Shown here: positions 1,346 through 59,131 of the stretch, one piece after another
How the letters are laid out: the number at the start of each line of letters is the position of its first letter
Position numbering within the stretch: position 1 is the first letter of the stretch
Assembly (NCBI RefSeq): GCF_037392515.1
Contig: NC_090280.1
Location: forward strand, 74,016,504-74,080,503
DNA length: 64,000 bases
Source: Haliotis asinina
Taxonomy: Eukaryota > Mollusca > Gastropoda > Lepetellida > Haliotidae
Direction of reading: 5' to 3'
Notes under the pieces: model-generated
Database searches by the model: none
Told to the model about the DNA's origin: nothing
Seen by the model: the letters and a program-made list of their open reading frames with translations, nothing else
Translations under genes and position numbers: made by a program

Positions 1346-1812
1346 CCACCCGGGTCGAGTTTTAATAGACCAAATGTATCGATATATAGCAAATATCATT
1401 GCATGATTATCACTTACTCTGCCTCTGACTTCACTCTCGCACAGATCGGCTAGATCGACGATCAAAACATGGACGTGCATTTACACAATGCATCTGAGCC
1501 ATCTTAATCGCGTCATATATAAATGCATCAGTACATACAATGATACTTGACTGGCTGTTGGAAGCGCACATCTGTATTGTGCATCTTACCACTTTGGGAG
1601 ACGAGTTAACGAAAATGGAGTTTGTGTGGTCTTGTGTGGACTGAGCCCGAAACTGCCAAAATACAAAACGGCAATTTACAGCTGGAGTCAAAACGGTAAT
1701 ATTAACTTTTGAACGCTGGAATGTTTCATTTTGCGATTGTAATTTGGGTTATTAATTTCTTCAAAGCAATTTTGGCATATGTAAAAGTAAAAGTAAAATT
1801 AGGACTCAGAAT
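1346..1812. repeat. sequence weakly repeated near 11.7 kb
   Basis: CCGAAACTGCCAAAA plus neighbouring blocks recur at 11751-11860 in the same orientation. No coding. Probably an old non-autonomous element. Confidence 0.35.
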
Positions 1813-1831
1813 GTGTTAATATTAGCCTATA

Positions 1832-1968
<137 letters not shown>

Positions 1969-2387
1969 ATAGTACCAGGAACAGTTTACATTTTGCTTTC
2001 CTGATCTAGAGGTAAGAACGGATACATGATCTCATGCACTGTATGGCATAGAACACAGTGCAAACACTGTTAGGATCACTAGCTATCAGAGACATCGCAG
2101 TAACTTGTGTGTGGCTTGTACAAACCAAGAGGCCTTTCTGTCCCCTGTGTGCCTGTACATGAGGCAGAAGCGATGGATCACCTGTCATTGTTATCGCATT
2201 GAATGTGTTCATATTAACTGTTGTAAGTAAAGGAACTATATTTCTCTCAATAGCACCATGAACACATAACATCAACCCCCTGGGTCAGTCATTAATAATT
2301 ATTGATCCACTGGGGAACAAGTGACTCGGTGTGAAGCTTTTACAAGTCAAGGAACCTTTGTGTGCCCGATGCATCTATACAAGTGAG

Positions 2388-2538
2388 ATGGGGGTAGCCT
2401 GATGGTTGGACCGTCCGCTCATTACTCTGAAGACCCGGGTTCGATTCCACAAATGGGTACAATGTATGAATCCCATTTCTGGTGTCCACTGTCATGATAT
2501 TGCTTAAACTGGGGCATAACCAGGCTCACTCACTCCAA
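2388..2538 (+). mobile_element. SINE A
   Basis: GGGGTAGCCTGATGGTTGG, then CCCGGGTTCGATTCC, tail CAGGCTCACTCACTCC. Confidence 0.75.
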
Positions 2539-2904
2539 ATGAGGCTATACCTTTGGTGCTTAGGTGTTGCCAACGTTATTCGGTGAACAGATCTTGTAAA
2601 TTATCGATTACAGTTACAATGTTCTGAACATAACATCATAAAGTTCTCGTATCGGTCATTTTATTCAGGGTTTTCCAAAGTAAACTCAAGTAGTGACTGA
2701 ATTGCGGTTTGGGTGGGGTGGGTGGTGGTGCGTGCGTACCCCTGCACTCTGTCTCTGGGTAGGCCGATGGGATAGCGTTTAGTCATAAAACAAGAATGTC
2801 ATTGCCTTTTGCGGTAAATTCCGAAAGTCATGTCAAATAGGTTTTTTGTCGTTGTGTCGTCTTTTAAAGACGTTCTGAAAACCCTGATGTACACATTGTG
2901 AATG

Positions 2905-5219: not shown

Positions 5220-5352
5220 GTGGGGTAGCCTAGTGGTTAAAGTGTTTGCCCGCCTTGCTGATGGGTACACTGAGTGGAGTCCATTTCTGGTGTCCCCAGC
5301 TATATTACTGGATTATTGCAAAAGCAGGTTAAAACCAAACTCATTCACTCAC
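5220..5352 (+). mobile_element. SINE A ending inside the zinc-finger ORF
   Basis: GTGGGGTAGCCTAGTGGTTA, shortened B-box region, tail AAACTCATTCACTCAC. Its last bases, read on the minus strand, supply the TGA that ends the zinc-finger frame at 5349. Confidence 0.8.
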
Positions 5353-6497
5353 AAGGGCCAGTCAACATCATGAGTAGCCAAGTGTTTTTTTCGTTGAAGT
5401 GGCCGTGCAAATTCTTTCTCACACAGGAAACAAGGATATGGCATGACTTCAATGTGCACTGCTGCATGCTGCTTCATACGATGAACATTTGTAAATGTTT
5501 TCCCACAGTCTGTACATGAACAACGTTTTTTTCGTTTTTTTTCCTTGTGTGTCAGCATGTGTTTCGTCAATTCTGCTTGCGTTGGAAATGTTTCCCCACA
5601 CTCTGTACAAGGTCTTCTTGGAAGATGAATTTTCATATGCATCTTCAGGTCAGATGACCGTGGAAATGTTTCCCAACATTCTCCGCAGGAATATGCTTTT
5701 CGTTCAAGATGAACCTTCATGTGTTTCCTCTTTGAATAAAGTTGTGTGAATCTAGCTCCACACAAGTTACAAAAAGTGGAATAAGGTTGTCGCTCAGCGT
5801 GAACTAGCATGTGTTCTTGAAGGTCACTTGGACGTGTAAATACTTTCTCACACCGATTACATGTAAAAGACTTGGGCTTTCTGAGGCACCTATGTGCCTT
5901 CCTTTCACGCTTTGTACTAAAATCCTTTCCACATTTACGACAGTGACGGACTTTTCTAACTTTATTCTGTTTCGGGGTGTTATTGGTTTCTATTGATGTC
6001 CCCTCACCTCCCTTGTTCCTGTCTTCATTGATGCCATTGTCTTGGATATTGACTTCAGAACAACCTCTGTTCTGTTCGTGGTTCCCTCTCTCCCCTAAAA
6101 TACTAGACATGTTACTGCTCTGAGCATCAGTGTTCATGTTTGGGGCCTCCGTCTCCACAACAGTGTCACAGGTGTTAATGTTCTGGGTGTCAGTGTTCTG
6201 GTTCATTGTTTTCTCAACAATGACGCAGGTGTTGATGTTCTGTGTTTCCGTGGTCTTGCTTGGGGCCTCTGTCTCCCCAACAATGTCACAGATGTTAATA
6301 TTCTGGGTGTCAGTGTTTTGGTTCATTGTCTCCACAACAGTGTTAAAGGTATTAATGTTCTGGGTGTCAGTGTTCTGGTTCATTGCTTTCTCAACAGTGT
6401 CAAAGGTGTTAATGATCTGGCTGTGAGAGTTTTGGTTCATTGTCTTCTCAACAATATCACAAGTGTAAATGGTCTGTGTGTCAGTGCTCTGGTTCAT
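5349..6497 (-). CDS. C2H2 zinc-finger ORF derived from a PRDM9-type last exon
   Basis: A 382-residue open frame. Residues ~1-130 are imperfect ~18-27-residue repeats (core MNQNTDTQNINTCD). A Gly/Asn-rich linker follows. From ~185 come one C2HC-type finger (RHCRKCGKDF) and six C2H2 fingers (FTCNRCEKVF, FCNLCGARF, YSCGECWETF, RPCTECGETF, CSCTDCGKTF, YPCFLCEKEF). Linkers between fingers are irregular, not TGEKP-like. Upstream sequence to ~6660 matches the PRDM9-like last exon: CAGCTCAGTTGAGG occurs in both, but here it runs into a TAA and a frame change before this ATG. The isolated finger is absent. The TGA stop lies in a SINE tail ending at ~5352. It could be a young zinc-finger gene or a decaying paralogue; no promoter evidence. 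Confidence 0.55.
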   Translation of the reverse strand: MNQSTDTQTIYTCDIVEKTMNQNSHSQIINTFDTVEKAMNQNTDTQNINTFNTVVETMNQNTDTQNINICDIVGETEAPSKTTETQNINTCVIVEKTMNQNTDTQNINTCDTVVETEAPNMNTDAQSSNMSSILGERGNHEQNRGCSEVNIQDNGINEDRNKGGEGTSIETNNTPKQNKVRKVRHCRKCGKDFSTKRERKAHRCLRKPKSFTCNRCEKVFTRPSDLQEHMLVHAERQPYSTFCNLCGARFTQLYSKRKHMKVHLERKAYSCGECWETFPRSSDLKMHMKIHLPRRPCTECGETFPTQAELTKHMLTHKEKKRKKRCSCTDCGKTFTNVHRMKQHAAVHIEVMPYPCFLCEKEFARPLQRKKHLATHDVDWPL

Positions 6498-6660
6498 TTC
6501 TCCTCAACAATATCACTGGAGTTACTGTTCTGTGTTTCAGTGTTCTGATCCTGACTTTCTGTTTACCCAATAATGTTGAGGGTGTTAGTACCATTTTCCA
6601 TGTTCCTCAACTGAGCTGACAGATGTCCTCCGGGTTGTGTACTCCTGAAAAATCATACTC
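6498..6660 (-). pseudogene. decayed 5' part of a duplicated PRDM9-type terminal exon
   Basis: On the minus strand an acceptor-like TTTTTCAG is followed by sequence that aligns with the start of the PRDM9-like last exon (shared SAQLR, then the N/T/Q-rich stretch). The aligned frame hits a TAA and then a TGA before the downstream 382-codon ORF opens in another frame. The acceptor phase also differs from the real gene. It therefore cannot serve as an alternative last exon in its present form. Confidence 0.5.
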
Positions 6661-16557: not shown

Positions 16558-19500
16558 TCAACTGTGAGAGCGCATGTGTGTTTGAAGATTTCCAGACTGA
16601 GTAAAAGCCTTTCCACATTGACTACACTGATATGGCCGATCTCCACTGTGAGATCTCATGTGTACATGCAGGTGACTTGACGTTGTGAAAGCCTTCTCAC
16701 AAACACTGCACTGATGAGGCCGAACACCAGTGTGGCATCTCAAATGTTTCTGCAGACCACCAGACTCTGAAAAAGCCTTCTCACATACAGTACACTGGTA
16801 TGGTTTTTCACCACTGTGACACCTCATGTGTCTCTGCAGGTCTCCAGAGGTTGTGAATGCCTTTTCACACTCACTGCACTGGTAAGGCTTGACTCCATTG
16901 TGACACCTGATGTGTCTTTGAAGGTCACTGGACTTAGAGAATGCCTTCCCACACTCGTTACATGGGAAAGGCTTGACACCAGTGTGGCTCCTTAAGTGCG
17001 TTTGTAGGTTACCTGACTGTCTAAATGATTTACCACACACTGTACATCGATAGGGCCAGACACTAGAATGACACATCATGTGTTTCTGAAGGTAACTTGA
17101 CAATGGAAACGCCTTTCCACACTGACTACATTCAAAAGGCTTGGCTCCACTGTGGCAACTCATGTGTGCTTGAAGGTTACTTGGTCTCGTGAACGTCTTG
17201 TCACATTCACTACATTGATGAGGCTTGATGTCACTATGACACCTCATGTGAGAGGTCAGGTCGCTTGATGTTATAAACGTTTTACCACATTCACCACACA
17301 GATAAGGTCTGACGGCAGTATGACTCTTCATGTGAGTCTTTAAGTCACTTGTTTCAGCAAATGCTATTCCACACTCACTACACTTATACGGCTTGACGCC
17401 TATGTGACAACGCAAGTGCTTTTGCAAGTAACTTGATCGGGTAAACGTCTTGTCACACTCACTGCAGGGGTAAGGTCTCGCTCCACTGTGAAGTAACATG
17501 TGTCGCTGAAGGTCGCTGGATTGTGTGAACGCTTTTCCACACTCGCCACATGGAAAAGGCTTAACTCCACTATGGTATTTCATGTGCATCTTCAGGTGAC
17601 TTAATTGTTTGAATTCCTTCCCACACTGCCCACACTGGTAGCGCCGGATTCCAGGGGAACCATTGTCCTGTTTCATTGGCACCATCGATGCCCCATCGCC
17701 CCCAGCACTATTGGCACTTTCAGTGTTGCCACGGTTACTGTTCTGGTTCTCCAGTTCCTTTCCAAGGTCGGAGCTGTTAATGCCCTGAGTGTTCACTATG
17801 AACCTCAACTGAGCTGTCAGTTTTCCTTTGTGCATTTTCTTTAAGTGTTTCCATAAGAACAACACAGTTGAGAACCCGAGGTCACAGTTGTCACATGGGT
17901 AGCTTTCTGGAAAGAGATTCGCAAAACATATAAGAATGCATAAGAATGGCGAAAACAGGTAATAAACTACTAGTATAAATGAAGTCGCTTACTTCAGTCA
18001 ACTGTTCTAAATTAGATTTTGCCGAATATTCCATACTGGTTCAAGATACGGTTTACACATGACCTGATGTATTGTAAAACAAATTTGTATGTCTTGATAA
18101 TCAAAACACAATGAAAATTGGTGAACAAAACTTTACACCAAAAGTGAGTGAGTGAGTGAGTGAGTGAGTGAGTGAGTGAGTGAGTGAGTGAGTGAGTGAG
18201 TGAGTGAGTGAGTGAGTGAGTGAGTGAGTGAGTGAGTGAGTGTGGAGCTTATCCTCTTCATTATATTCACAGATTTATGGCAATGCCAGAATCTGGACTC
18301 ACTGACAACAAATCCACACATATTATAAAACACTTTCAAATTTAGCTCATTTATAACATCCTCATGCTATTTTATAAAAAATCTACTGGCAACTTGAAGT
18401 TCACCACCATCAGGGCCAAAACTAAATGTGGACACTTTTCACTTCAAAAGAGACTGAGAGAACAATTTACAGCAATTTCACAGACAGCTTTCACTTTTCC
18501 TGACAGGCTACCCAAGATAACAGATTTTTTTCCGTAAGTGGGCATGGTGGGGTAGGTGGTTATGGTGTTCACTCGTCATGCCAAATGCTGAGTTCGATTC
18601 CCCAGTGCTCCTGCCGTGACATTACTGGAATATTGCTGAAAGTGGCACAAAACAATACTCAGTCACTCACTCTTTGTGTAAGTGGGTTACCTTGACTTGG
18701 TGGCAGTTTGAGCTGTCTCTCAATACCGAGTTCCTTCCCATACTTGTGTCCGTACCATACAAGCAGCTCGGAACCAACACCAATCTTCTTGTACACTCTG
18801 TAGTAGATATGACCTTTGTATTGAAAGGCTATCAGATTCTGTTCCTCCTCTGTACGAGCACAGTTGACATATCTCATCCAGTTGGCGGTGCTGCAGTTGT
18901 GGCCGTCCACAAAGTGGGAAGGTTGTCCATCAGTGTGTATCTGAATGAAAATGAATGTAAAATTGTATCACAACATTGCACAGAGAAGTAAATGTTACAT
19001 AACGTTTGCTTCTGAAAACATTTCTTACCATGTCTCTAGAGACAACCATACATCAATTTTTGTACAGGTGAATGACCTTAGACATGTAATGATAATGAAA
19101 ATATCCCCAGTACTTTCAGTATCTAAACATGATGTTCCAAAAATTCAACTTCCTTTACCAGAGAGACAGGCTCGCTGAGTTGGTTGACACGTGTCATCGG
19201 TTCCCAATTGATCAGATCAATGCTTATACTGTCAATCACTGGATTGTCTGGTCCAGACTTGATATAATATTTACAGGCTGCCACCATATAGCAGAAATAC
19301 TGGTGAGTGCAGCGTAAAACTAAACCCACTCACTCACTCACTTTATCAGAGAGACCTGTGAAGATCTGGGTTAGAATTGGTCTTCAGTAACCCATGCTTG
19401 TCATAAGAGGTGACAAACAGGATCAAGTGGTCTGGGCTGATGGTTGATACATGTCATTAGACCCCAGTTGTGTGGATTGATGCTCATGTTGGTGACCACT

Positions 19501-22500
19501 GGATTGTCTGGTCCAGACTTGATTATATACAAACAGTTACAGCTAGACTATATTCGCAGAGTCAGTCAGTAGTCACTCTTTTATCGGTTTCCATACTGGG
19601 CATGTTGCTACTGTATCAGGTGTGGAGTAGACTCAAGTCATGCAACTCTGTGAGTCTTAGATGTTTCCAGGTTTGCTAAACCACAAGAATGGTTTAGCTC
19701 AAAATTGACCATACCCACGAAGATGTGGCTTAGAACTGATAATCAACAACCCATGCTTGTCATAAAAGGCGACTAATGTGATCGGGTGGTCAGGCTTGCT
19801 GACTTGGTTGATACGAGCCATCAAATCCCAGTTGTGTAGATCAATGATCTTGGTGTCAATCACTGGATTATCTGGTCCAGTCTTGATTTAGCTGGAATAT
19901 TGTTGAGTGTGGTGTTTAACAACAAACCAACTGGGAAAATTGTCTGGACAAAGTCACAAGTGTTTCCTTCTTTGTTGAATATGGGTATTGCCTTGTCTAG
20001 AATATCCTTGATATCTCCAGGGTATACATTCTGATAAATCACCACTGCACCCTTGGCGGATCTACTGCTAGATTTTTATTACCTCCCTTTGCTGGCTCCG
20101 CATTCTCACAGTAGCCCCCATTACAACTAAGCTTGCTCACAGTGCAACTCAGATTTGAAGGAAATCATAGAGACAAACTGTCAGGTCTGAAACTTTAAAA
20201 AAATATATGCAAGACTTCCTTCTGCCTCTTTCAGAGTTCCTCTGCATGAATTGTGTTTCCAAGTTTAATTGCTTAGAAAATTTAAAAAGTGACACTGTGT
20301 TGTGATTGGTATGCTCAACTTCGCATCGTAAGCACCTGATTGGATAAAAAGCCAGCCAAGGGAGGTAATAAAATTATTGGGCCGAGCCATAGATGCATCC
20401 AGAGAATAGTGGATATTTATCGGAACATATACATTGCAGATATTGAGGATGTGTCAAGAAACATGGCCAGTCAAAATCTTGACTTGATTTTGACAAAAGG
20501 TCACAAGTCTCTGTTACACCAAGGGAAGCAACTCTGCACCTGAAGAGGGCTAACCAGGCTTTGTAACTCTGCGAACTAAGTGTAACATTGCAACAATGAC
20601 TGTGAGACAAACTCTTTAAACAGGGTTACAATACATTTTGCAGTACAAGGCTGACAACAGGATTGTCCACACAAATGTATTGTTCATTATGGTTTATTCA
20701 TAGTACGAACTGTACTGTTATCCAGACAGGTTATTAGGTTTCAGTTTGTGTACTTGCGAACAGTTTGCAAAAACAAACCTGACATTAGCGACACCTTACT
20801 TTGCTCAAGAATGAAAAAGGCATGTGGTTTCACCAAGTGCGGGGTTCAAAGTGAAATTGTAGTTAGTTTGTTCCGATATGTTGGTTAGGCCTTGAGATTA
20901 GTGTCATTTGGGTGTTAGATTGTTTGACAGAGGTTTAGTGTAAAAGAAAGTTAGGAAGGTAAGATATTGTATAATACAATAAAACGTAAATTAAAAAATA
21001 TTAAGTTCTGATCTTGTGGGTTCATTTTTATATCACAACTTGTACAAAACATACCGACCACAAGGCCTTTGGTTTAGTGTATGAAAATTTACTTCCATGA
21101 TGGCTGTCTAGCAGAGAAATGCATAGACTTTTGACAAAACGATTTGATTTCTAGACATTTGAAGAAAGATTTAAAAGGGTTAGTAATATGACATTACAAA
21201 ACAGAAAATACCAAATTTTGGAGCTGCATCATGGTATGCCAAACCGAAGGCAGATTACTGCAGTTCTACTAATACCAAAGGGTACTGTTTTACCGCTACC
21301 ATTAAACAACCTTTCTGTACAACATCTTACTTGCCAGCTGTATCCTGATCGTTTAGGAGGCTCTTCATTGCTGATGATGTCTCCCTCATATGGACCGAAA
21401 CAGGTTCGTGGAACAAAGTCCTGGTATGTCCAAACTCCAAGACCAGCTCCTGGAATACCCGATTCCTCAATCTCCAGACCAACAGGCAAAGTTTTCCAAG
21501 CCCTGTCTACACTTCCTGGTCTTTCCTGGAATATTCAAGGGACAAGTATTGATTCATGTCAAATACATGACAAACTATCAAATCAGCACTAGTTAATCAT
21601 CATTTGAAAGAAATATTTGGACAATTGAAAATGGAGCTAAAGTACTGATGGAAATAAAAAAAAACACACTTTTTTTACGAATGTATGTCTCCAATTTATG
21701 TAGTTATTGTGTGAAAGTGTGAGATATCTGTTAAACAATGTTCGGCCGAACTACAGTCTCAGAGGTAGGGAGATAGGACACATATAGAAAGGACTTTACT
21801 AAGGAGAGATTAGTGCAGAAATGAAAATGCAGTCCAAAGCGACTTATCTGGAAGAAACCATGACTTTTTGCAAATTAGTGTGCAATGCTTTTCATTACAA
21901 AGGACACTTTTCAAACGCCCATTTTGAAATCAAGACATATCAGTTGAGATAAGATAATCCTATAGGCAAAGAAACTGGGGACGAAAACAGCATGTCATAA
22001 CAGTTTACAAATAATATCCAGAATTGTAGAGGGGTCATGCCACCTATATATTTTCAGACATTTAGTAAGAAGGCTGATTTCAGCTTTTGTGTGGGTATCA
22101 TACTTTATCAAACTTTGTGAAAGAAAAGCATATAAGATGTTAACCAATAGAGCAGACATATTCAACACACATGAAAAAGCATAAAATATCTTTGAGATGA
22201 CCCTTTGTGAATGCAGGCAGCACATGCAATTTCATGCTAGTTGAGTCGACGGCTGTCGCCAGACCTGGTTGAGCAACATGATTGGAATCTATAGTCCAAT
22301 CTACTGTTTTTAGCAGCTATTCGTGATTTTTCTAAGTTTTGCCTGAATTTACAAGCTTAAGTAACCATGTTTTTCTGGATCCAATGACACATCACACTGA
22401 AATCCCACTCAGGCTGATGTGGGTTATTTCGAAATATGCTATTTGCAATTGTGTAATGTTTAGGGGATACCGAAAATAGCCTAAAAACAGTTTGGTCTTT

Positions 22501-23948
22501 TTCCTATTTCTGACAGTACTTTAATGATAAACTTCAGTCTCAACAGATTAGAATTCATTTTCACTTTAGGCAGTCACAATATCATCAATAATTATAAACT
22601 TTAAAAAAATAAAATCCCTTTTACAAAACTTTGACATAATATAGTAATAGTGAGTTATTCTATTTAAGTTTCAGATAGTCGATCAAACAGGTTTAAAAGG
22701 CAAAAATAATCATGATAGATGAATTCAACCAGAGGCTTAACTTACACTAACCTTAACCTACTGTTGATTTCTTGAGAAAATACTGTTACCCAAACTGATT
22801 ATTTGACAGCAGGTTATAACTTGTCATTTCTTCATGTAGATTATAATGTTGTATTTGTAGATGAACGTTTCTTTCACACAGTAGAATCATCTATGTAAAA
22901 GTAAATGACATAGATATGACCATAGACAAATTTTATCTTTTCCACTGAGTCACAAATGTAATTCCACAGAATATGATCAAATCCTCTAAGGAATTTCAAC
23001 TATTAACATGATGAAGATGTATACCTTTACGTCTGTAACCATGATGAGAGGTCCATGCGCAGAACAGTCCCCTTCGTACTCAAGGTTGCAGTCCTCACAA
23101 TCTGAGGAACACAAAAACACTATTGAGTGAGAGAGTGAGTGAGTTTAGTTTTATGCTGCACTCAGCAGTATTCCAGCTACATGGCTGTGATCTGGAAATA
23201 ATCAAGTCTGGACCAGACAATCCAGTGATCAACAGCTTGAGCATCAGTCTGCACAATGGGGAACTGATGACATGTGGCAACCTAGTCAGCAAACCTGACC
23301 ACCTGATCCTGTTAATCGCCTTGTGCGACAAGAATGGTCGCCTTTAGTGGCAAGCATGGATTGCTGAAGACCTACTCTACCCCAGATCTTCACAGGTCAA
23401 CAGGTCAAAAACACTAGTGACGATCTGACTGAGCAAGAAATAGTAAAAGACAGACACAGATGAATTGCAAAAGACAGACACAGATGAATTGCAGTCTAGT
23501 TTGAAAACTAATAAACATAACACAGAGAAAGGGACAGCCAGGTGTGAGAGAAAGCATGGAGACAGCACAGCACAGGTTAATGAATAAACTACTTTCTCAG
23601 CACTTGTGCATGTGCTTCTCAAACACCTGGCTGTGCCTTTCTCTGCACTTCTCCCTCGAATAAACAGTGAACTGTGTCAATATTTTAATGACAGTTTGTT
23701 AAACAGCTGTTTTATTTTTAGGACAAAAACTATGCAAAAACCTTTTGATGTTTTGATCATGATCAGCATTTCGAGTTACACTGCAATTCATTGGTCTGCT
23801 TTTGAGTCAAACTATAGAAAGACTACTTACATAAAAGACTGTCGTCAGTCGGCACCTCCACAACCATGTAGTTACTCCAGAGTCTCTTGCACTCTCCTGG
23901 ATGTGAGCTTTCTACATATGGCTCCTGTTTCAGCAGAAATTCAAGACA
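16558..23948 (-). CDS. PRDM9-like: PRDM9-like histone methyltransferase with SET domain and C2H2 zinc fingers, 5'-incomplete
   Basis: Family role: PRDM9 methylates histone H3 (K4/K36) at sites chosen by its zinc fingers; in vertebrates this places meiotic recombination. Five exons join in frame with GT-AG borders and matching phases: 23948-23831, 23101-23025, 21525-21331, 18940-18691, 17906-16558 (663 codons with stop). In this partial protein residues 41-57 form a C2-CH zinc knuckle (CEDC, then DCSAHGP). Residues 78-205 are the SET domain: [26 protein letters not shown] (Y111), [22 protein letters not shown] and ELLVWYG, whose Tyr193 matches the catalytic Tyr of PRDM9. Residue 216 onward is an isolated finger ([10 protein letters not shown]), as in PRDM9. 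Residues 303-662 are 13 tandem 28-residue C2H2 fingers. Introns hold SINE B copies, a foldback element and a (GTGA)n tract. Exons upstream of 23948 (KRAB, SSXRD) are not identified, so the start is open. The phase agreement at every junction makes a pseudogene unlikely. Confidence 0.9.
18143..18242 (+). repeat. (GTGA)n microsatellite in PRDM9-like intron
   Basis: About 25 units. The unit equals the tail of SINE A/B, and a SINE tail is the likely origin. Confidence 0.97.
18540..18672 (+). mobile_element. SINE A in PRDM9-like intron
   Basis: GGTGGGGTAGGTGGTTATGG and GAGTTCGATTCCCC; its tail ends ~20 bp from the SET exon donor at 18690. Confidence 0.7.
19160..19535 (+). mobile_element. two SINE B copies in tandem
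   Basis: 19160-19343 lacks its head and ends (ACTC)n. 19350-19535 has a head but no tail. They lie in the intron between the SET exons of the PRDM9-like gene. Confidence 0.7.
19716..19935 (+). mobile_element. SINE B, diverged, shortened near its tail
   Basis: CATGCTTGTCATAAAAGGCG and GGATTATCTGGTCCAG are clear; the GACCGCCGCC block is deleted. Confidence 0.65.
19965..20480 (-). repeat. foldback element C, uninterrupted copy
   Basis: About 510 bp with ~120-bp inverted arms (GATATCTCCAGGGTATACAT ... TTACCTCCCTTTGCTGGCT against AGCCAGCCAAGGGAGGTAA ... GCAGATATTGAGGAT). The centre aligns with 10123-10360 in reverse orientation (shared CATGCAGAGG, ATTTTT). It lies in the intron between the two SET exons of the PRDM9-like gene. 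Confidence 0.65.
21526..23024 (-). other. PRDM9-like intron, no other feature seen
   Basis: 1.5-kb intron between the zinc-knuckle and first SET exons; donor GTATAC, acceptor AATATTCCAG. Confidence 0.6.
23125..23398 (-). mobile_element. SINE B, near full length, in PRDM9-like intron
   Basis: GAGTGAGTGAGTTTAGTTTT at the left, CCAGATCTTCACAGGTC at the right; moderately diverged. It begins only ~24 bp from the zinc-knuckle exon acceptor. Confidence 0.8.
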
Positions 23949-35500: not shown

Positions 35501-38500
35501 CCTCAACACCCGTGAAGGTCCAGGGGTAGAATAGGCTTCAGCAACCCATAAGAGGCGACAAACGGGATCGGGTGTTCAGGCTCGCTGACATGTCATCAGT
35601 TCCCCATTGCGCAGTTTGATGCTCATGTTGTTGGTCACTTGATTGCCTGGTCCAGTCTCGATTATTTACAGACCACCGCAATAAAGCTGGAATATTGTTG
35701 AGTGTGGTGTAAAACTAAACTCACTCACTCACTGTCCTAAAAACTTAAAAAAAAAAAAGAATTTGTTTGGCTTCAGCTTTGAGCCGTAATTTCAGTGAAT
35801 GAGTGAGTGAGTGAGTGAGATTTACGATGCACTCAGAAATATTCCCGCTAAGTGGCGGCCGTCTGTGAATAATCGAGTCTGGACCAGACAATCTGATATC
35901 TGTCAACCAAGATAGCGAGCCTGACCACCCTATGACATTTGTCGCCTCTCATGCACGGCAAGCATGGGTTGTCGAAGATCAGTCGTAACCCAAATCTTCA
36001 CTGGTTTGTCGCAGTATGTAGAGTAATGTTGGGGTTTTCAGATTGTTATAATCTAACGAAGCTTTGATGCCGGGTTTGTGATGTTGGAGTATGTAATGTA
36101 ACGATGTCTGATGTCATGCTTGTGATGTTGAAGTATGTAATGTAACAATGTTTGATGTCGATTTTGTGATGTCGGAGTATGTAACGTAACGATTCTTGAT
36201 GTCGAGTTTAGGCAGTCGGAGTATGTAATGCCAAGCATGGGTTGTCGAAGATCAGTCGTAACCCTGATTGTTATGATGTAACGAAGCTTTGATGTCGAGT
36301 TTGTGATGTCGGAGTAATGTAACTATGTTTGATATCCAGTGTGTCATGTCAGAGTATGTAATGTAACGATATTTGATGTCCAGTTTGTGATATCGGAGTA
36401 CGTAATGTAACGATGTTTAATGTCGTGTTTGTTATGTTGGAGTATGTAATGTAACAATGTTTGATGTCGAGTCTGTGATGTCGGAGGGTGCAAAGTACCG
36501 ATACTGATACTGATGCTGATATCAGATATCAGGCTGTGACAACTTAAGTCATTGCCTCTGGGCCTATTTTGCACGGGCACGAAACTGGGTACGTGACCAC
36601 AAATATGGTTCCGATAACAGACTTAACTTGAGATGTTCCACTGAACCGCAACGGGGTAATGACCAAAGGCATTTAGTAGTCAGGGCTTAGGCCGTGTGAC
36701 CGGTGCCAGTTTACACTTTTCACGCAGAGGTTTCGAATCCCAACAAGGGTACAATGTGTGAAGTCCATCTCGTGTTTCCCACGCCGTGACATTGTCGGAA
36801 TACGTGACGTAAAACTAAACTCACTTACTCCTCGTTCTCAGAGGATCTTCTCAAGGGGCATTGTGTTTCAGGACATTCATATTCCATAACGTAGCCTGGG
36901 GCTGTGGAGTAGCTTAGTGGTTACTGCGTTCGCTTGTCACGCTGAGGACCCGGATTCGAGTACACACACGGATACCATGTGTGAAGGCCATTACCGGAGT
37001 CCCTCGTCGTGATATGTCCGGGATATTGCCAAAAGCGGCGTATAACAATACACAATCACCCACTCACTCACTCACTACAACGTGCCTGTCTGGCATGACA
37101 TTTCGCTGACCAAATGTCATAGCAACAGAACATGACTGGGTTCTTGACCGGCGAGTAGGAAACAGTCCATACCTGCCAAAGAAAAGCACACAGAAAATGT
37201 AGAATGTGTGTTACTGGAGGATTGGAAATGCAATTGCAGGGACGACATGGGACCTTATGCTCAAGATATGTCTGGACGGCTTTGGAGGTCATACTGATAT
37301 AGTGACATACATCATACGTGATTTGTGAAAGTGGTAGTGATGACACAGAGGTGTTTGTTTGATTTTGTTATTTCATTTCAAGTACCAACATGATTGGAAA
37401 AGAACAGTTTGTTTTATGAGTTTTCAAACGCATTTGTACTTTGTACATTAAATGTTTATGAATGCAGGCTTGATCTCGTCACTATATGGCTGGAATAACG
37501 CCTGTGTGACGTAAAGCCCAACTCGATATACATTGATAATGTTTTTGATCAGGTGTTTAGAACATAACATTATTGTAATTCAGATAACTGAAATATCCCC
37601 TTGGGGCTAACCTCAAGTCTCATTCTGTAATACTGCCTCTAGCTTACCCTAGTGACTTACGATTGCTTTAGGGGTTTGTGAAAGGGGTCCCTAGGATATA
37701 ACCCGTGAAGGTCCCGGGGTAGAATAGGCCTTCAGCAACCCATGCTTGCCATAAAAGGCGACTCAGCTTGTCGTAAGAGGCGACTAACGGGATCGGGTGG
37801 TCAGGCTCGCTGACTTGGTTGACGCGTGTCATCGGTTCCCAATTGCGCAGATCGATGCTCATGTTGTTGATCACTGGATTGTCTGGTCCAGACTCGATTA
37901 TTTACAGACCGCCGCCATATAGCTGTAATATTGCTGAGTGCGGCGTAAAACTAAACTCACTCACTCACTTAACTTGAGAGATCGACCGTGGGAGCGGTGC
38001 CAGTTTACACTTGTCAAGCAGAAGATTCGAATCCCAACACGGGTACAATGCTTGAAGCCCATTTCGTGTTTCCCCCGCCGTGACATTGTGACATGGGACT
38101 TCATGCTCAAGAACTGTCTGGACGGCCGTGGAGGTCATACTGATATCGTGACATGCATCATACGTGATTTGTGAAAGTAGTAGTGATGACACAGAGGTGT
38201 TTGTTTGATTTGGTTATTTCATCCCACTAAACTCACTCACTCACTCACCCTAGGATATAAGCTGAAAGGTGAGGTAAATGTGTTTCTGATCCTTAAACTA
38301 TTTAGGAATACAACTCGTTCAGCAGGATCCCGAATAATTCCCAGGTCATAAACATCCCCATCGCCCTCATTTTATGTAACATGAGGTATTGATACTCACT
38401 ATTTAAATGCCCTACAACGATTCGATCTGATAGTCGGACGTTTGAATCTCCTAAACCACCTGGTGCTTAATGGTTTCAATGCTGTCAAGTAATGTTATTT

Positions 38501-39690
38501 ATGTCCACATTGCAGGGGTCTTGTTGGCCGGTCCAAGAACAGAAAAAGTTTTCATAGATCACCCAAAGATGTTCAACTTTGGCAGCATGTTGAGCTACCC
38601 AGACCCTGACACGCTGAGACCAGTCCCTTGGGTTGCTGATGGGGTCAAGGTCGCTGAAATGTTATGCGAATCTCGGTGGAAGAAGGGCGGTGTTCCCCAG
38701 GAGGCGTGTCCACGATACGTTGCTAGGAAACAGTTGAAGAGGTTAGACGAACATGGATACAAATTGTACTCTGGTTATGAAATTGAATTTAAAATGATGC
38801 ACAGGGATACAATGGAACCTGTGTTTTATGGCCAAGATGCTTACAGTCAGAGGTTACTTCAAAAGCAATGCAAAACGTTACTTCACTTTGACAAAAACTT
38901 AAAGGAATCTAACATTGATGTTGAGCGGTATCATCCTGAGTTTGGTTCTGGTTTGTTTGAAGCTGTGACCAAACCGAAGTATGGCATAGAGTGTCCCGAT
39001 ATGGTCTTAAACTTGAAACAGGGCCTGATGGAGATGTCTGATGTGAAAGATGTAGTTATCACTTTCATGTCCAAACCGGAACTGGACAACAAAGCAACAG
39101 GAATTGGTGCCCATTTCAATTTTTCACTCTGGAACCAATCTGGAGACAGCCTGTTCTATGATGCTGACGCTCCTGATAATTTATCTGTTATGGCAAAGCA
39201 GTGGATTGCTGGCATCATGAAACACAGTAAGGCACTATGCGCTTTTAACAGCCCCACCGTCAACTGCTACAGGCGGCTTCACCAGCCCTTTTTCCCTTCA
39301 GCAATATTCTGGGGTATAGAAGATCGTGAGGCATGTTTCCGAATTAAGAATGACGGTCCTTCCGGTACATACATCGAAAATAGACTTCCCAGTGGAAAGA
39401 GTAACCCTTACCTCATTGTGGCGTCTACAATCGCTGCAGGGCTGGACGGTGTAATCAACAAACTGGAGTGTCCACCGCCGGGAAAGACAGAAAAGACAGA
39501 GAACCTGCCAAGAACACTGTCTGAAGCTCTTGAGGAACTGGAACGGGATGAAGCATTGGTAGATGCCCTGGGCAATGAACTTGTGACTTGGTTCGTGAAA
39601 TGCAAGAGAGATGGGGAGATTGCAAAATATAAAGACTTGCAAACTGACGAGGAACGATTTGCTCGAGAGAAAGAGGCCTATTTTCTATGA
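32548..39690 (+). CDS. LGSN-like: lengsin / type-1 glutamine synthetase-like protein, copy 1
   Basis: Two exons: 32548-32698 and 38516-39690, phase 1, GT-AG (donor GTAAAA, acceptor ATTGCAG), giving 441 residues. The N-terminal beta-grasp-like part (residues ~15-95) precedes the GS catalytic barrel. Metal-ligand glutamates are kept: E139 and E141 in YEIEF, E192 and E199, E338 in IENRLPSGKSNPYL. H250 in GIGAHFNFSL matches the ATP-site His; the second His of that motif is N252. Arginines R321, R326 and R340 are present. The flap Glu that deprotonates ammonium in GlnA has no counterpart in HQPFFPSAIFWG. Vertebrate lengsin is a lens protein without activity; this relative keeps more ligands, so it may bind nucleotide and metal or act on another amine. 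The ATG follows GTGACA; the upstream frame is short. Intron 5.8 kb, filled with repeats. Confidence 0.92.
32812..33000. repeat. ~43-bp minisatellite in lengsin intron, copy 1, first array
   Basis: Four to five units of GTCGAGGTTGTGAAGTCGGG plus TATATGAAATAATGCTGTTG. It lies ~110 bp after the exon-1 donor. Confidence 0.75.
33003..33475. mobile_element. two SINE B copies, facing outwards
   Basis: 33003-33186 on the minus strand, 33187-33475 on the plus strand. The pair is shared with duplication unit 2 (55010-55438). Confidence 0.75.
33682..34022 (-). mobile_element. two SINE A copies, second without head
   Basis: 33682-33842 is full (minus-strand GGATAGTCTAGTGGTTAAAG). 33918-34022 has only (GTGA)n and the 3' half. 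Neither is seen in unit 2. Confidence 0.7.
34240..35010. other. duplicated intron block without gene
   Basis: Matches 55565-55925 in part (TAGCGGCAAAGCCTT, GAGCTCGGTGTACGACAGAG). The 70-codon minus-strand frame at 34627-34839 is broken in unit 2. Confidence 0.5.
35014..35250 (-). mobile_element. SINE B, diverged (unit 1)
   Basis: GTCTGAACCAGACAATCCAG and ATCTCGTTAGTCGTCTCTTG are clear; counterpart at 55935. Confidence 0.65.
35509..36010. mobile_element. two SINE B copies facing each other (unit 1)
   Basis: 35509-35735 on the plus strand and 35797-36010 on the minus strand. In unit 2 only the second is present (56445-56625), so the first inserted after the duplication or was lost there. Confidence 0.7.
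36045..36500. repeat. ~43-bp minisatellite in lengsin intron, copy 1, second array
   Basis: About ten units of GATGTCGAGTTTGTGATGTC plus GGAGTATGTAATGTAACGAT. The unit aligns with that of the array at 32812, so both are one family separated by 3 kb. Confidence 0.8.
36690..36835 (+). mobile_element. SINE A-like copy
   Basis: TTTCGAATCCCAACAAGGGT and ACGTGACGTAAAACTAAACT; the head is replaced by GACCGGTGCCAGTTTACAC. Confidence 0.6.
36900..37075 (+). mobile_element. SINE A, full (unit 1 only)
   Basis: GGAGTAGCTTAGTGGTTACT, GGATTCGAGTACAC, tail CCCACTCACTCACTCAC. Confidence 0.75.
37250..37385 (+). repeat. block repeated within the 3'-flank insert at 38090-38230
   Basis: GTCTGGACGGCTTTGGAGGT to TTGATTTTGTTATTTCAT matches 38117-38228 with several changes; it is the original, non-inserted version in unit 1. 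Confidence 0.75.
37689..38260 (+). mobile_element. SINE B insertion carrying 3' flanking sequence
   Basis: CCCTAGGATATAA stands on both sides (37689-37701 and 38248-38260). Copy 2 has the empty site near 57672 (GCCCTAGAATATAA). The insert is a full SINE B (37702-37970), then ~260 bp starting TTAACTTGAGAGATCGACC that matches the flank of the copy-2 SINE B at 57241 without a difference seen over ~150 bp, then a second ACTAAACTCACTCACTCA tail. Confidence 0.75.
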
Positions 39691-49480: not shown

Positions 49481-50918
49481 AATCAGTACCTTCCCTAGCC
49501 CCCATGTTACCGGGGTAACACGGTCAGTACCTTCCCTAGCCCCCATGTTACTGGGGTAACACGGTCAGTACCTTCCCTAGCCCCCATGTTATTGGGGTAA
49601 CACGATCAGTACCTTCCCTAGTCCCAATGTTACCGGGGTAACACGGTCAGTACCTTCCCTAGCCCCCATGTTACCGGGGTAACACGGTCAGTACCTTCCC
49701 TAGCCCCCATGTTACTGGGGTAACACGGTCAGTACCTTCCCTAGCCCCCATGTTACTGGGGTAACACGATCAGTACCTTCCCTAGTCCCCATGTTACCGG
49801 GGTAACACGGTCAGTACCTTCCCTAGCCCCCATGTTACCGGGGTAACACGGTCAGTACCTTCCCTAGCCCCCATGTTACTGGGGTAACACGATCAGTACC
49901 TTCCCTAGTCCCCATGTTACCGGGGTAACACGATCAGTACCTTCCTTAGCCTCCATGTTACCGGGGTAACACGATCAGTACCTTCCCTAGTCCCCATGTT
50001 ACCGGGGTAACACGATCAGTACCTTCCCTAGCCTCCATGTTACCGGGGTAACACGATCACTACATTCCCTAGCCCCCATGTTACCGGGGTAACACGATCA
50101 GTACCTTCCCTAGCCCCCATGTTACTGGGGTAACACGATCAGTACCTTCCCTAGCCCCCATGTTACCGGGGTAACACGATCAGTACCTTCCCTAGCCCCC
50201 ATGTTACCGGGGTAACACGATCAGTACCTTCCCTAGCCCCCATGTTACCGGGGTAACACGATCAGTACCTTCCCTGGCCTCCATGTTACCGGGGTAACAC
50301 GATCAGTACCTTCCCTGGCCTCCATGTTACCGGGGTAACACGATCAGTACCTTCCGTAGACCCATGTTACTGGGGTAACACGATCAGTACCTTCCCTAGC
50401 CCCCATGTTACCGGGGTAACACGATCAGTACCTTCCCTAGCCCCCATGTTACTGGGGTAACACGATCAGTACCTTCCCTAGCCCCCATGTTACTGGGGTA
50501 ACACGATCGGTACCTTCCCTAGCCTCCATGTTACTGGGGTAACACGATCAGTACCTTCCCTAGCCCCCATGTTACTGGGGTAACACGATCAGTACCTTCC
50601 CTAGCCCCCATGTTACTGGGGTAACACGATCAGTACCTTCCCTGGCCTCCATGTTACTGGGGTAACACGATCAGTACCTTCCCTAGCCCCCATGTTACCG
50701 GGGTAACACGATCAGTACCTTCCCTAGCCCCCATGTTACCGGGGTAACACGATCAGTACCTTCCCTAGCCCCCATGTTACCGGGGTAACACGATCAGTAC
50801 CTTCCCTAGCCCCGATGTTACTGGGGTAACACGATCAGTACCTTCCCTAGCCCCCATGTTACCGGGGTAACACGATCAGTACCTTCCGTAGACCCATGTT
50901 ACTGGGGTAACACGATCG
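49481..50918. repeat. 41-bp satellite array, about 35 units
   Basis: The unit carries GTTACCGGGGTAAC, then ACGATCAGTACC, TTCCCTAGCCCCCAT. GTTACC/GGTAAC form a 6-bp hairpin arm in every unit. Units vary at CCG/CTG and at ACGGTCAG/ACGATCAG. The first ten units repeat a longer order (CCG, CCG, CTG, CTG with the GGTC form), then the GATC form takes over. No coding frame persists. Confidence 0.95.
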
Positions 50919-57500: not shown

Positions 57501-59131
57501 ATTGATAATGTCTTTTGATCATTAGTTTAAGAACATAACATTATTGCAATTCAGGTAACTGGAAAAATCCCTTGTCGACGGCAAACAAGGCCCGCGCTGA
57601 ATCCTTTCACGAAGCAATCTTTAAAAACCTTTAGTTCTCTAACACGCTTTGTGACAGGAGGCCCTAGAATATAAGCTGAAAGATGAGGTAAATGTGTTTC
57701 TCATCCTTGAACTGTTTGGGAATACAACTCGTTCAGCAGGTTTCCGAGTACTTCACAGGTCACAAACATCCCCATCGCCCTCATTTTATATAACACGAGG
57801 TAACGATACTCACTATTAAAATGCCCTATAACGATTCCGGGCTGGTCCCCTGGTCATACGATGCGATCTGATGGTTGGACGTTTAAATCTCCTAAACCAC
57901 CTGGTGCTTAATGGTTTCAATGCTGTCAAGTAATGTTATTTATGCCCACATTGCAGGGGTCTTGTTGGCCGGTCCAAGAACAGAAAAGGTCTTCATAGAT
58001 CACCCAAAGATGTTCAACTTTGGCAGCATGTTAAGCTACCCCGACCCTGACACGCTGAGACCAGTCCCTTGGGTTGCTGATGGGGTCAAGGTCGCTGAAA
58101 TGTTATGCGAGTCTCGGTGGAAGAAGGGTGGTGTTCCCCAGGAGGCGTGTCCACGATACGTTGCTAGGAAACAACTGAAGAGGTTAGACGAACTTGGATA
58201 TAAATTGTATTCTGGTTATGAAATTGAATTTAAAATGATGCACAGAGATACAATGGAGCCTGTCTTTTATGGCCAAGACGCTTACAGTCAGAGGTTACTT
58301 CAGAAGCAATGCAAAACTTTACTTCACATTGACAAAAACTTAAAGGATTCTAACATTGATGTTGAGCGGTATCATCCTGAGTTTGGTTCTGGTCTGTTTG
58401 AAGCTGTGACCAAACCGAAGTATGGCATAGAGTGTCCCGATATGGTCTTAAACTTGAAACAGGGCCTGATGGAGATGTCTGATGTGAAAGATGTAGTTAT
58501 CACCTTCATGTCCAAACCGGAACTGGACAACAAAGCAACAGGAATTGGTGCCCATTTCAATTTTTCACTTTGGAACCAATCTGGAGACAGCCTGTTCTAT
58601 GATGCTGACGCTCCTGATAATCTATCTGTTATGGCAAAGCAGTGGATTGCTGGCATCATGAAACACAGTAAGGCACTATGCGCTTTTAACAGCCCCACCG
58701 TCAACTGCTACAGGCGGCTTCACCAGCCCTTTTTCCCTTCAGCAATATTCTGGGGTATAGAAGATCGTGAGGCATGTTTCCGAATCAAGAATGACGGTCC
58801 TTCAGGTACATACATCGAAAATAGACTTCCCAGTGGAAAGAGTAACCCTTACCTCATTGTGGCGTCTACAATCGCTGCAGGGCTGGACGGTGTAATCAAG
58901 AAACTGGAGTGTCCACCGCCGGGAAAGACAGAAAAGACAGAGAACCTGCCAAGAACACTGTCTGAAGCTCTTGAGGAACTGGAACGGGATGAAGCATTGG
59001 TAGATGCTCTGGGCAGTGAACTTGTGACGTGGTTCGTGAAATGTAAGAGAGATGGGGAGATTGCAAAATATAAAGACTTGCAAACTGACGAGGAACGATT
59101 TGCTCGAGAGAAAGAGGCCTATTTTCTATGA
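54550..59131 (+). CDS. LGSN-like: lengsin / type-1 glutamine synthetase-like protein, copy 2
   Basis: Exons 54550-54700 and 57957-59131 with the same phase-1 junction as copy 1 (donor GTAAGG, acceptor ATTGCAG) and the same 441-residue length. Differences from copy 1 are V7I, S34A, H130L, F175I, E181D, N365K and N404S. None touches the presumed metal or nucleotide ligands. Many other base differences in exon 2 are silent, which points to both copies being under selection. The intron is 3.3 kb, shorter than in copy 1 because several repeat insertions and a local duplication there are absent. It lies directly in tandem with copy 1, same strand, 22 kb away. Confidence 0.92.
54815..55008. repeat. 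~43-bp minisatellite in lengsin intron, copy 2, first array
   Basis: The counterpart of 32812-33000 with about the same unit number, so the array predates the duplication. Confidence 0.75.
55010..55438. mobile_element. two SINE B copies, facing outwards (unit 2)
   Basis: Orthologous in position to 33003-33475. The second copy has lost the GACCGGTGCCATATAGC block and part of the tail. Confidence 0.75.
55935..56165 (-). mobile_element. SINE B, diverged (unit 2)
   Basis: Counterpart of 35014-35250; shares the odd GCAAGCAGGGCTTGCTTAAG. Confidence 0.65.
56445..56625 (-). mobile_element. SINE B (unit 2)
   Basis: Counterpart of the minus-strand copy at 35797-36010. Here the GTGAGTGAGTGAG tail is nearly gone. 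Confidence 0.65.
56690..56850. repeat. ~43-bp minisatellite in lengsin intron, copy 2, second array
   Basis: The counterpart of 36045-36500 but only about four units, so the array has grown or shrunk since the duplication. Confidence 0.75.
56974..57238 (+). mobile_element. SINE B, full length, in lengsin copy 2 intron
   Basis: Flanked by ACTTAACTTGAGAG on both sides (56960-56973 and 57239-57252). Copy 1 has the site without the insert at ~36610. Shares the unusual AGCTGTAATATTGC with the insertion at 37702. Confidence 0.8.

Follow-up and report, generated by a model that had tools for sequence, protein, structure and literature searches.

A PRDM9-type gene of the abalone Haliotis asinina, probably a chromatin or gene regulator beside a fuller PRDM9 copy

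Outside vertebrates, it is an open question whether recombination is placed by PRDM9. Full-length PRDM9 homologues are noted in cnidarians and sponges by a 2026 paper, which regards the retention of the function across 600 million years as unknown (PMC13186367), and a 2018 review states that non-vertebrate orthologues "have not been carefully examined" (PMC6116924). A gene of Haliotis asinina raises the question in a mollusc. It lies in the window, i.e. the whole stretch of 64,000 nucleotides that was analysed (C1:74016504-74080503, in a genome of 1.143 Gb and 159 contigs), and a sequence-only reading had proposed that it could set recombination sites; here it is considered together with the other PRDM9-type copies found in the same genome.

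The window gene is real. It consists of five minus-strand exons (Table 1), separated by introns of 729, 1499, 2390 and 784 nt that all have GT...AG ends; all four junctions are in phase, which confirms the earlier join into a zinc knuckle, a SET domain and 1+13 fingers. The resulting model of 662 aa contains a zinc knuckle, a PR/SET domain, one post-SET finger and 13 tandem fingers, and Pfam recognises in it PRDM2_PR (145.9 bits), SET and 13 zf-C2H2 stretches. Tyrosines 111, 177 and 193 of the model correspond to human Y276, Y341 and Y357; all three catalytic tyrosines are kept, including residue 193, already named as the catalytic one, and the sequence blocks singled out at the same time, ELLVWYG among them, are intact as stated. 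The finger exon is open over its 1349 nt and its 13 fingers are intact. The description of the gene as complete-looking holds for SET plus fingers, but not for the 5' end: no start-codon exon was found, and the model, which does not begin with a Met, must lack one or more 5' exons. An alternative acceptor is possible for exon A, 24 nt further in.

Table 1. Coordinates of the features in the window (position 1 is the first nucleotide of the window)
Feature	Coordinates	Strand	Description
Window gene, whole model	16558..23948	-	five exons
Exon A	23831..23948	-	pre-knuckle segment, SSXRD position, LRxR core absent
Exon B	23025..23101	-	zinc knuckle
Exon C	21331..21525	-	PR/SET N-terminal half; Tyr equivalent to human Y276
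Exon D	18691..18940	-	PR/SET C-terminal half; Tyr equivalents to human Y341 and Y357
Exon E	16558..17906	-	post-SET finger, spacer, 13 tandem C2H2 fingers, stop
Second C2H2 exon-like ORF	5352..6503	-	384 aa, 6 regular fingers; downstream of the window gene, same orientation
Glutamine-synthetase-like ORF	38455..39687	+	neighbour of the window gene
Second glutamine-synthetase-like ORF	57896..59128	+	98.5% protein identity to the ORF at 38455..39687

The family of the gene was assessed by searching PDB with its 243-residue knuckle-SET-finger part, which matched 15 sequences. Three PRDM9 entries come first (188, 171 and 168 bits), followed by PRDM11 (101 bits) and PRDM14 (91 bits). Human PRDM9 (4ijd, E=1.5e-54) is matched over query residues 33-240 in a single alignment, which runs across all four junctions from upstream of the knuckle to the post-SET finger; its gaps are small, the largest being an 8-residue PRDM9 insertion near the last junction. 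By SET-region score the gene is PRDM9-type, as had been proposed. PRDM11 has a zinc knuckle and SET in common with it. On the PDB scores, where PRDM11 reaches 101 bits and PRDM9 188, membership of PRDM11 or another PRDM family was rejected, though the tree alone would be insufficient to reject PRDM11. In this tree of eight rows the window gene groups with a copy at C1:80.84 Mb (88/95), and the two are joined to two copies on C13 (80/90); human and mouse PRDM9 stand with PRDM11 across a 98/96 branch, whereas PRDM14 falls with the mollusc copies. The branches of PRDM11 and PRDM14 are long and their placement is unsure. The topology fits duplications within molluscs, but it does not cleanly separate PRDM9 from PRDM11 and cannot by itself tell kinship to one from kinship to the other.

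The SET part of the window gene, used to search the whole genome, has 32 matches with an E value of at most 10; 35 candidates were scored. Knuckle and SET are both present at four loci: the window, C1:80.835-80.844 Mb, C13:28.663-28.678 Mb and C13:11.763-11.772 Mb. Egg lysin, a family of vetigastropods (abalones and kin), has 10 matches in this genome at E up to 1; seven of the ten are over the Pfam cut-off, all of them on C14, as fits a mollusc and probably a vetigastropod.

The copy at C1:80.835-80.844 Mb, 6.8 Mb from the window gene, is its sister; it has a finger ORF of 752 aa with 13 regular fingers, the C-terminal part of its SET domain is 93% identical in protein to that of the window gene, and exon D has 95.5% DNA identity over 246 bp. 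Over SET exons B-D, 37 of 109 synonymous sites and 44 of 410 nonsynonymous sites are changed between the two copies (Fisher p=5.6e-8), with a dS of 0.451, a dN of 0.116 and a dN/dS of about 0.26; this pairwise ratio suggests constraint on both copies, without proving it for each. On this comparison, the window gene and the sister copy are a diverged, SET-constrained pair. Each has a glutamine-synthetase-like gene upstream on the opposite strand, with 78% protein identity between the two, and the shared neighbour suggests a segmental duplication. Duplications within molluscs are the most likely origin of the window gene.

Two further finger exons lie downstream of the window gene in the same orientation. 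One is the second C2H2 ORF of the window, in which no post-SET finger was found and which looks decayed, given the stops and the frame change just upstream of it; the other is an orphan exon at about C1:74.0003-74.0013 Mb, which includes a post-SET finger and whose acceptor is plausible. No SET match belonging to either was found, and it is a minor possibility that they are alternative terminal finger exons of one SET module.

A fuller PRDM9 copy is located at C13:28.66 Mb, where KRAB-like, SSXRD-like, knuckle, SET and finger-array segments follow each other in this order. Upstream of its knuckle, three exons are found in order on one strand: a KRAB-like exon, DIDQFFTKAELSTLSDYEKLRLRNMRKNYEMMAELG, with 40.5% identity to human PRDM9 KRAB (E=2.7e-7); a middle exon with EDSDSDEEW (E=1.0); and an SSXRD-like exon, YPLRPRPGLNYMRMEGPDDDHFL, matching the human SSXRD segment at E=0.010. 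The two exons are named from these matches to the human sequences and from their collinearity, since the Pfam models miss both. Genome searches with the Pfam KRAB and SSXRD models gave nothing over cut-off; these negatives are uninformative, since the models miss the C13 copy too, and they were dropped as evidence in favour of direct probes. The other C13 copy, at 11.763-11.772 Mb, has an SSXRD-like exon, a knuckle and SET as far as IYYQ; about 33 kb of downstream sequence contained neither a VWYG exon nor a finger array, and KRAB was not matched in the roughly 27 kb upstream of this copy.

At the window gene, no match to the human KRAB probe in the 40 kb upstream is better than E=4.3, and the KRAB probe from C13 has no match there with an E value of 1 or less. 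This absence holds only as far as the incomplete 5' end allows, since a KRAB exon that is remote or divergent could escape. Similarly, no convincing KRAB match was found in the 31 kb upstream of the sister copy. Genome-wide, the C13 KRAB exon matches only C13 itself and C1:79.549 Mb; the latter match is on the plus strand, opposite to the window gene, has 74% identity and is followed by an MPVMKPDFM exon, and no SET match was found near it. Exon A of the window gene keeps NYM..E.P.DD..LY and lacks LRxR, which we take to be the core of SSXRD from the human sequence; both C13 copies have this core at the exon A position (YPLRPRPGLNYMRMEGPDDDHFL and YPLRQRPDLNYMRLEGPDDDNFL).

The finger arrays were compared by the contact-site share, i.e. 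the formula of Baker et al. for amino-acid diversity at contact sites, the in-genome controls being only the sister copy and the second finger ORF of the window. The share is 0.226 for the window gene (12 of 13 units), 0.273 for the sister copy (13 units), 0.187 for the second finger ORF (6 units) and 0.634 for the C13 array (10 readable units of 13); pairs of units have a mean DNA identity of 0.639, 0.634, 0.511 and 0.944, respectively. With 23-residue units, which keep all the regular fingers, the shares become 0.285 (13 units) for the window gene, 0.353 (13) for the sister copy and 0.686 (11) for C13. Thus, the window fingers are diverged and not homogenised, with little of their diversity at contact sites. 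The slow arrays are not wholly devoid of contact-site diversity, since four random sites hold as much of it in 2.8% of shuffles for the window gene and 0.1% for the sister copy (0.028 and 0.001); the value for C13 is 0.035%. In Table 1 of Baker et al. human PRDM9 has a share of 0.687 and the cattle chr1 copy 0.684; complete orthologues range from 0.331 to 1.0 and partial ones from 0.158 to 0.331, with one at 0.524, so that the two vertebrate ranges meet at 0.33 (PMC5519329).

The C13 array consists of 13 units of about 84 bp, 12 of them near-identical and the last one diverged. In the 10 whole-frame units (the last excluded), DNA differences fall at helix codons -1, 1, 2, 3 and 6; the two exceptions are a silent change in a first codon and the linker of a unit that has a one-base deletion. 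Four different units of the array each carry a single-base indel that breaks the frame; by eye, these indels lie at runs of 2-3 like bases. The copy may be misassembled or recently dead; we think assembly error likelier than decay, since so little else differs between the units.

In vertebrates, rapid finger evolution was found only together with KRAB and SSXRD, with one possible exception (Baker et al. 2017, PMC5519329). The abalone genome repeats this rule, as seen from the C13 copy set against the window gene and its sister. The complete PRDM9 of mammals and salmonids shares with the window gene the zinc knuckle, SET, post-SET finger and terminal finger exon; however, in the latter KRAB was not found, the SSXRD core is absent and the fingers are not homogenised, and it is the C13 locus that resembles the complete type. 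Conversely, PRDM9-beta of teleosts and other partial vertebrate copies have a PRDM9-type SET and C2H2 fingers with KRAB/SSXRD missing or eroded, as the window gene has, and in both SET is constrained; the contact share of the window gene falls within the 0.158-0.331 of all the partial vertebrate copies but one (PMC5519329). It differs from them in belonging to a mollusc, with a separate origin, and in its single uninterrupted array of 13 fingers; moreover, fish beta copies have the catalytic Tyr substituted, whereas the window gene keeps its catalytic tyrosines (PMC5519329, PMC11703093). Lottia gigantea also has a gastropod Prdm9-type gene with a C2H2 array, but its 23 fingers are in concerted evolution, with a male-gonad EST, while the 13 of the window gene are diverged; by the published description, the counterpart of the Lottia array looks to be that of C13 (Oliver et al. 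2009, PMC2779102).

Taken together, the window gene shows the features of a PRDM9-beta-like partial copy: SET with fingers, no KRAB found, no SSXRD core, slow fingers and a constrained SET. With a probability of roughly 0.62, it is a partial, SET-competent-looking PRDM9 paralogue that acts as a chromatin or gene regulator and does not place recombination, a role proposed because KRAB and SSXRD are missing. Its 13 fingers would bind a fixed DNA target, at which the SET domain would methylate histone H3 (K4/K36); lacking KRAB and SSXRD, the protein would pass no sites to the meiotic break machinery and would work on chromatin or gene expression, as is thought for the KRAB-less PRDM9-beta of fish. 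If the animal uses PRDM9 for recombination, this role would belong to the fuller C13 copy. Swordtail fish with a partial PRDM9 copy recombine like knock-outs (PMC5519329).

Three other explanations were considered. The window gene might be a germline helper of the fuller PRDM9, pairing with it or regulating meiotic genes with no hotspot role of its own; both functions have been raised for non-canonical salmonid copies (PMC11703093) and the constrained SET agrees with them; such a role seems unlikely. It is quite improbable that the gene does place meiotic recombination, through a KRAB exon that was not seen or that molluscs can dispense with. The PRDM9-type SET with its three catalytic tyrosines, the missing 5' end and the broken frame of the competing C13 copy in this assembly all speak for it; however, KRAB was not found in the 40 kb upstream, the SSXRD core is absent, the fingers are 64% alike with no focus on contact sites, and a fuller copy exists elsewhere in the genome, so that the recombination role first proposed for the window gene is unsupported. 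Least probable of all is a functionless, decaying duplicate, to which the missing start exon, the decayed-looking finger ORF nearby and the orphan finger exon at C1:74.001 Mb would point, against the open finger exon with its 13 intact fingers, the intact splice sites and a dN/dS of about 0.26 to the sister copy at dS 0.45.

A gastropod Prdm9 is already in print and a PRDM9 with 10 fingers is reported for the bivalve Mulinia (PMC10451705); in the accessible portion of the open-licence PubMed Central literature, no mollusc-specific study of PRDM9 paralogues appears other than Oliver 2009 and that survey of PRDM genes in Mulinia. What is new is one genome with both kinds of copy side by side: a fuller, fast-fingered copy beside KRAB-less, slow-fingered ones that look catalytically intact. 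Fast- and slow-fingered copies in one genome are internal controls for each other, and they name both the gene to test for PRDM9-placed recombination outside the vertebrates and the negatives. A tentative reading, to which we give less than even odds, is that the PRDM9 family of the snail was divided independently: one copy has KRAB/SSXRD and explosive finger turnover, and two or more others are without KRAB, catalytically intact and fixed in their fingers. If this is true, the link between KRAB/SSXRD and finger turnover that is known from vertebrates would date back to the bilaterians, and PRDM9-directed recombination would probably be bilaterian-old as well.

The genome of Haliotis asinina holds a PRDM9-type gene fuller than the window copy (C13:28663000-28678500), in which a KRAB-like part, an SSXRD-like part, the knuckle, SET and a finger array are all present. 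Its frame is disrupted by four single-base indels, located in short base runs; the array is built from 13 fingers, each unit some 84 bp long, and 12 of the units are near-identical and distinguished almost solely by their contact codons, those of the finger residues touching DNA.

Further loci and exons were observed. At C13:11762800-11772400 lies a PRDM9-type locus in which an SSXRD-like exon, a knuckle and most of SET are present; no VWYG exon or fingers were found in a search covering about 33 kb downstream. The second PRDM9-type KRAB-like exon of the genome (C1:79548996-79549124) is followed by an MPVMKPDFM exon, with no SET match close to it. Downstream of the window gene, two finger exons without a SET match of their own (see table) may be alternative terminal exons or orphan duplicates.

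Additional finger exons and non-PRDM features
Feature	Position	Strand	Remarks
Finger exon with acidic repeats	window 5352-6503	that of window gene	downstream; decayed-looking
Finger exon with acidic repeats	C1:73998500+1696..2790	that of window gene	downstream; plausible acceptor and post-SET finger
Glutamine-synthetase-like ORF	window 38455-39687	+	first of two
Glutamine-synthetase-like ORF	window 57896-59128	+	second of two
Tandem array	window 49482-50917		41-bp unit, 35 copies, 95% matches

The two glutamine-synthetase-like ORFs, 98.5% identical as proteins, lie about 20 kb apart inside a duplicated block. Elsewhere, egg-lysin-family matches are clustered at C14:26671878-26961594, some with internal stops.

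The SET-C exon of the window gene (18691-18940) shows 95.5% DNA identity and a dS of 0.24 with that of its sister paralogue (C1:80837515-80837770), a likeness that ends near the exon edges; the SET-N exon, by comparison, has a dS of 0.84 and lacks such high identity, and synonymous changes differ between the two exons (Fisher p=0.002). Gene conversion confined to the SET-C exon may have occurred between the two copies.
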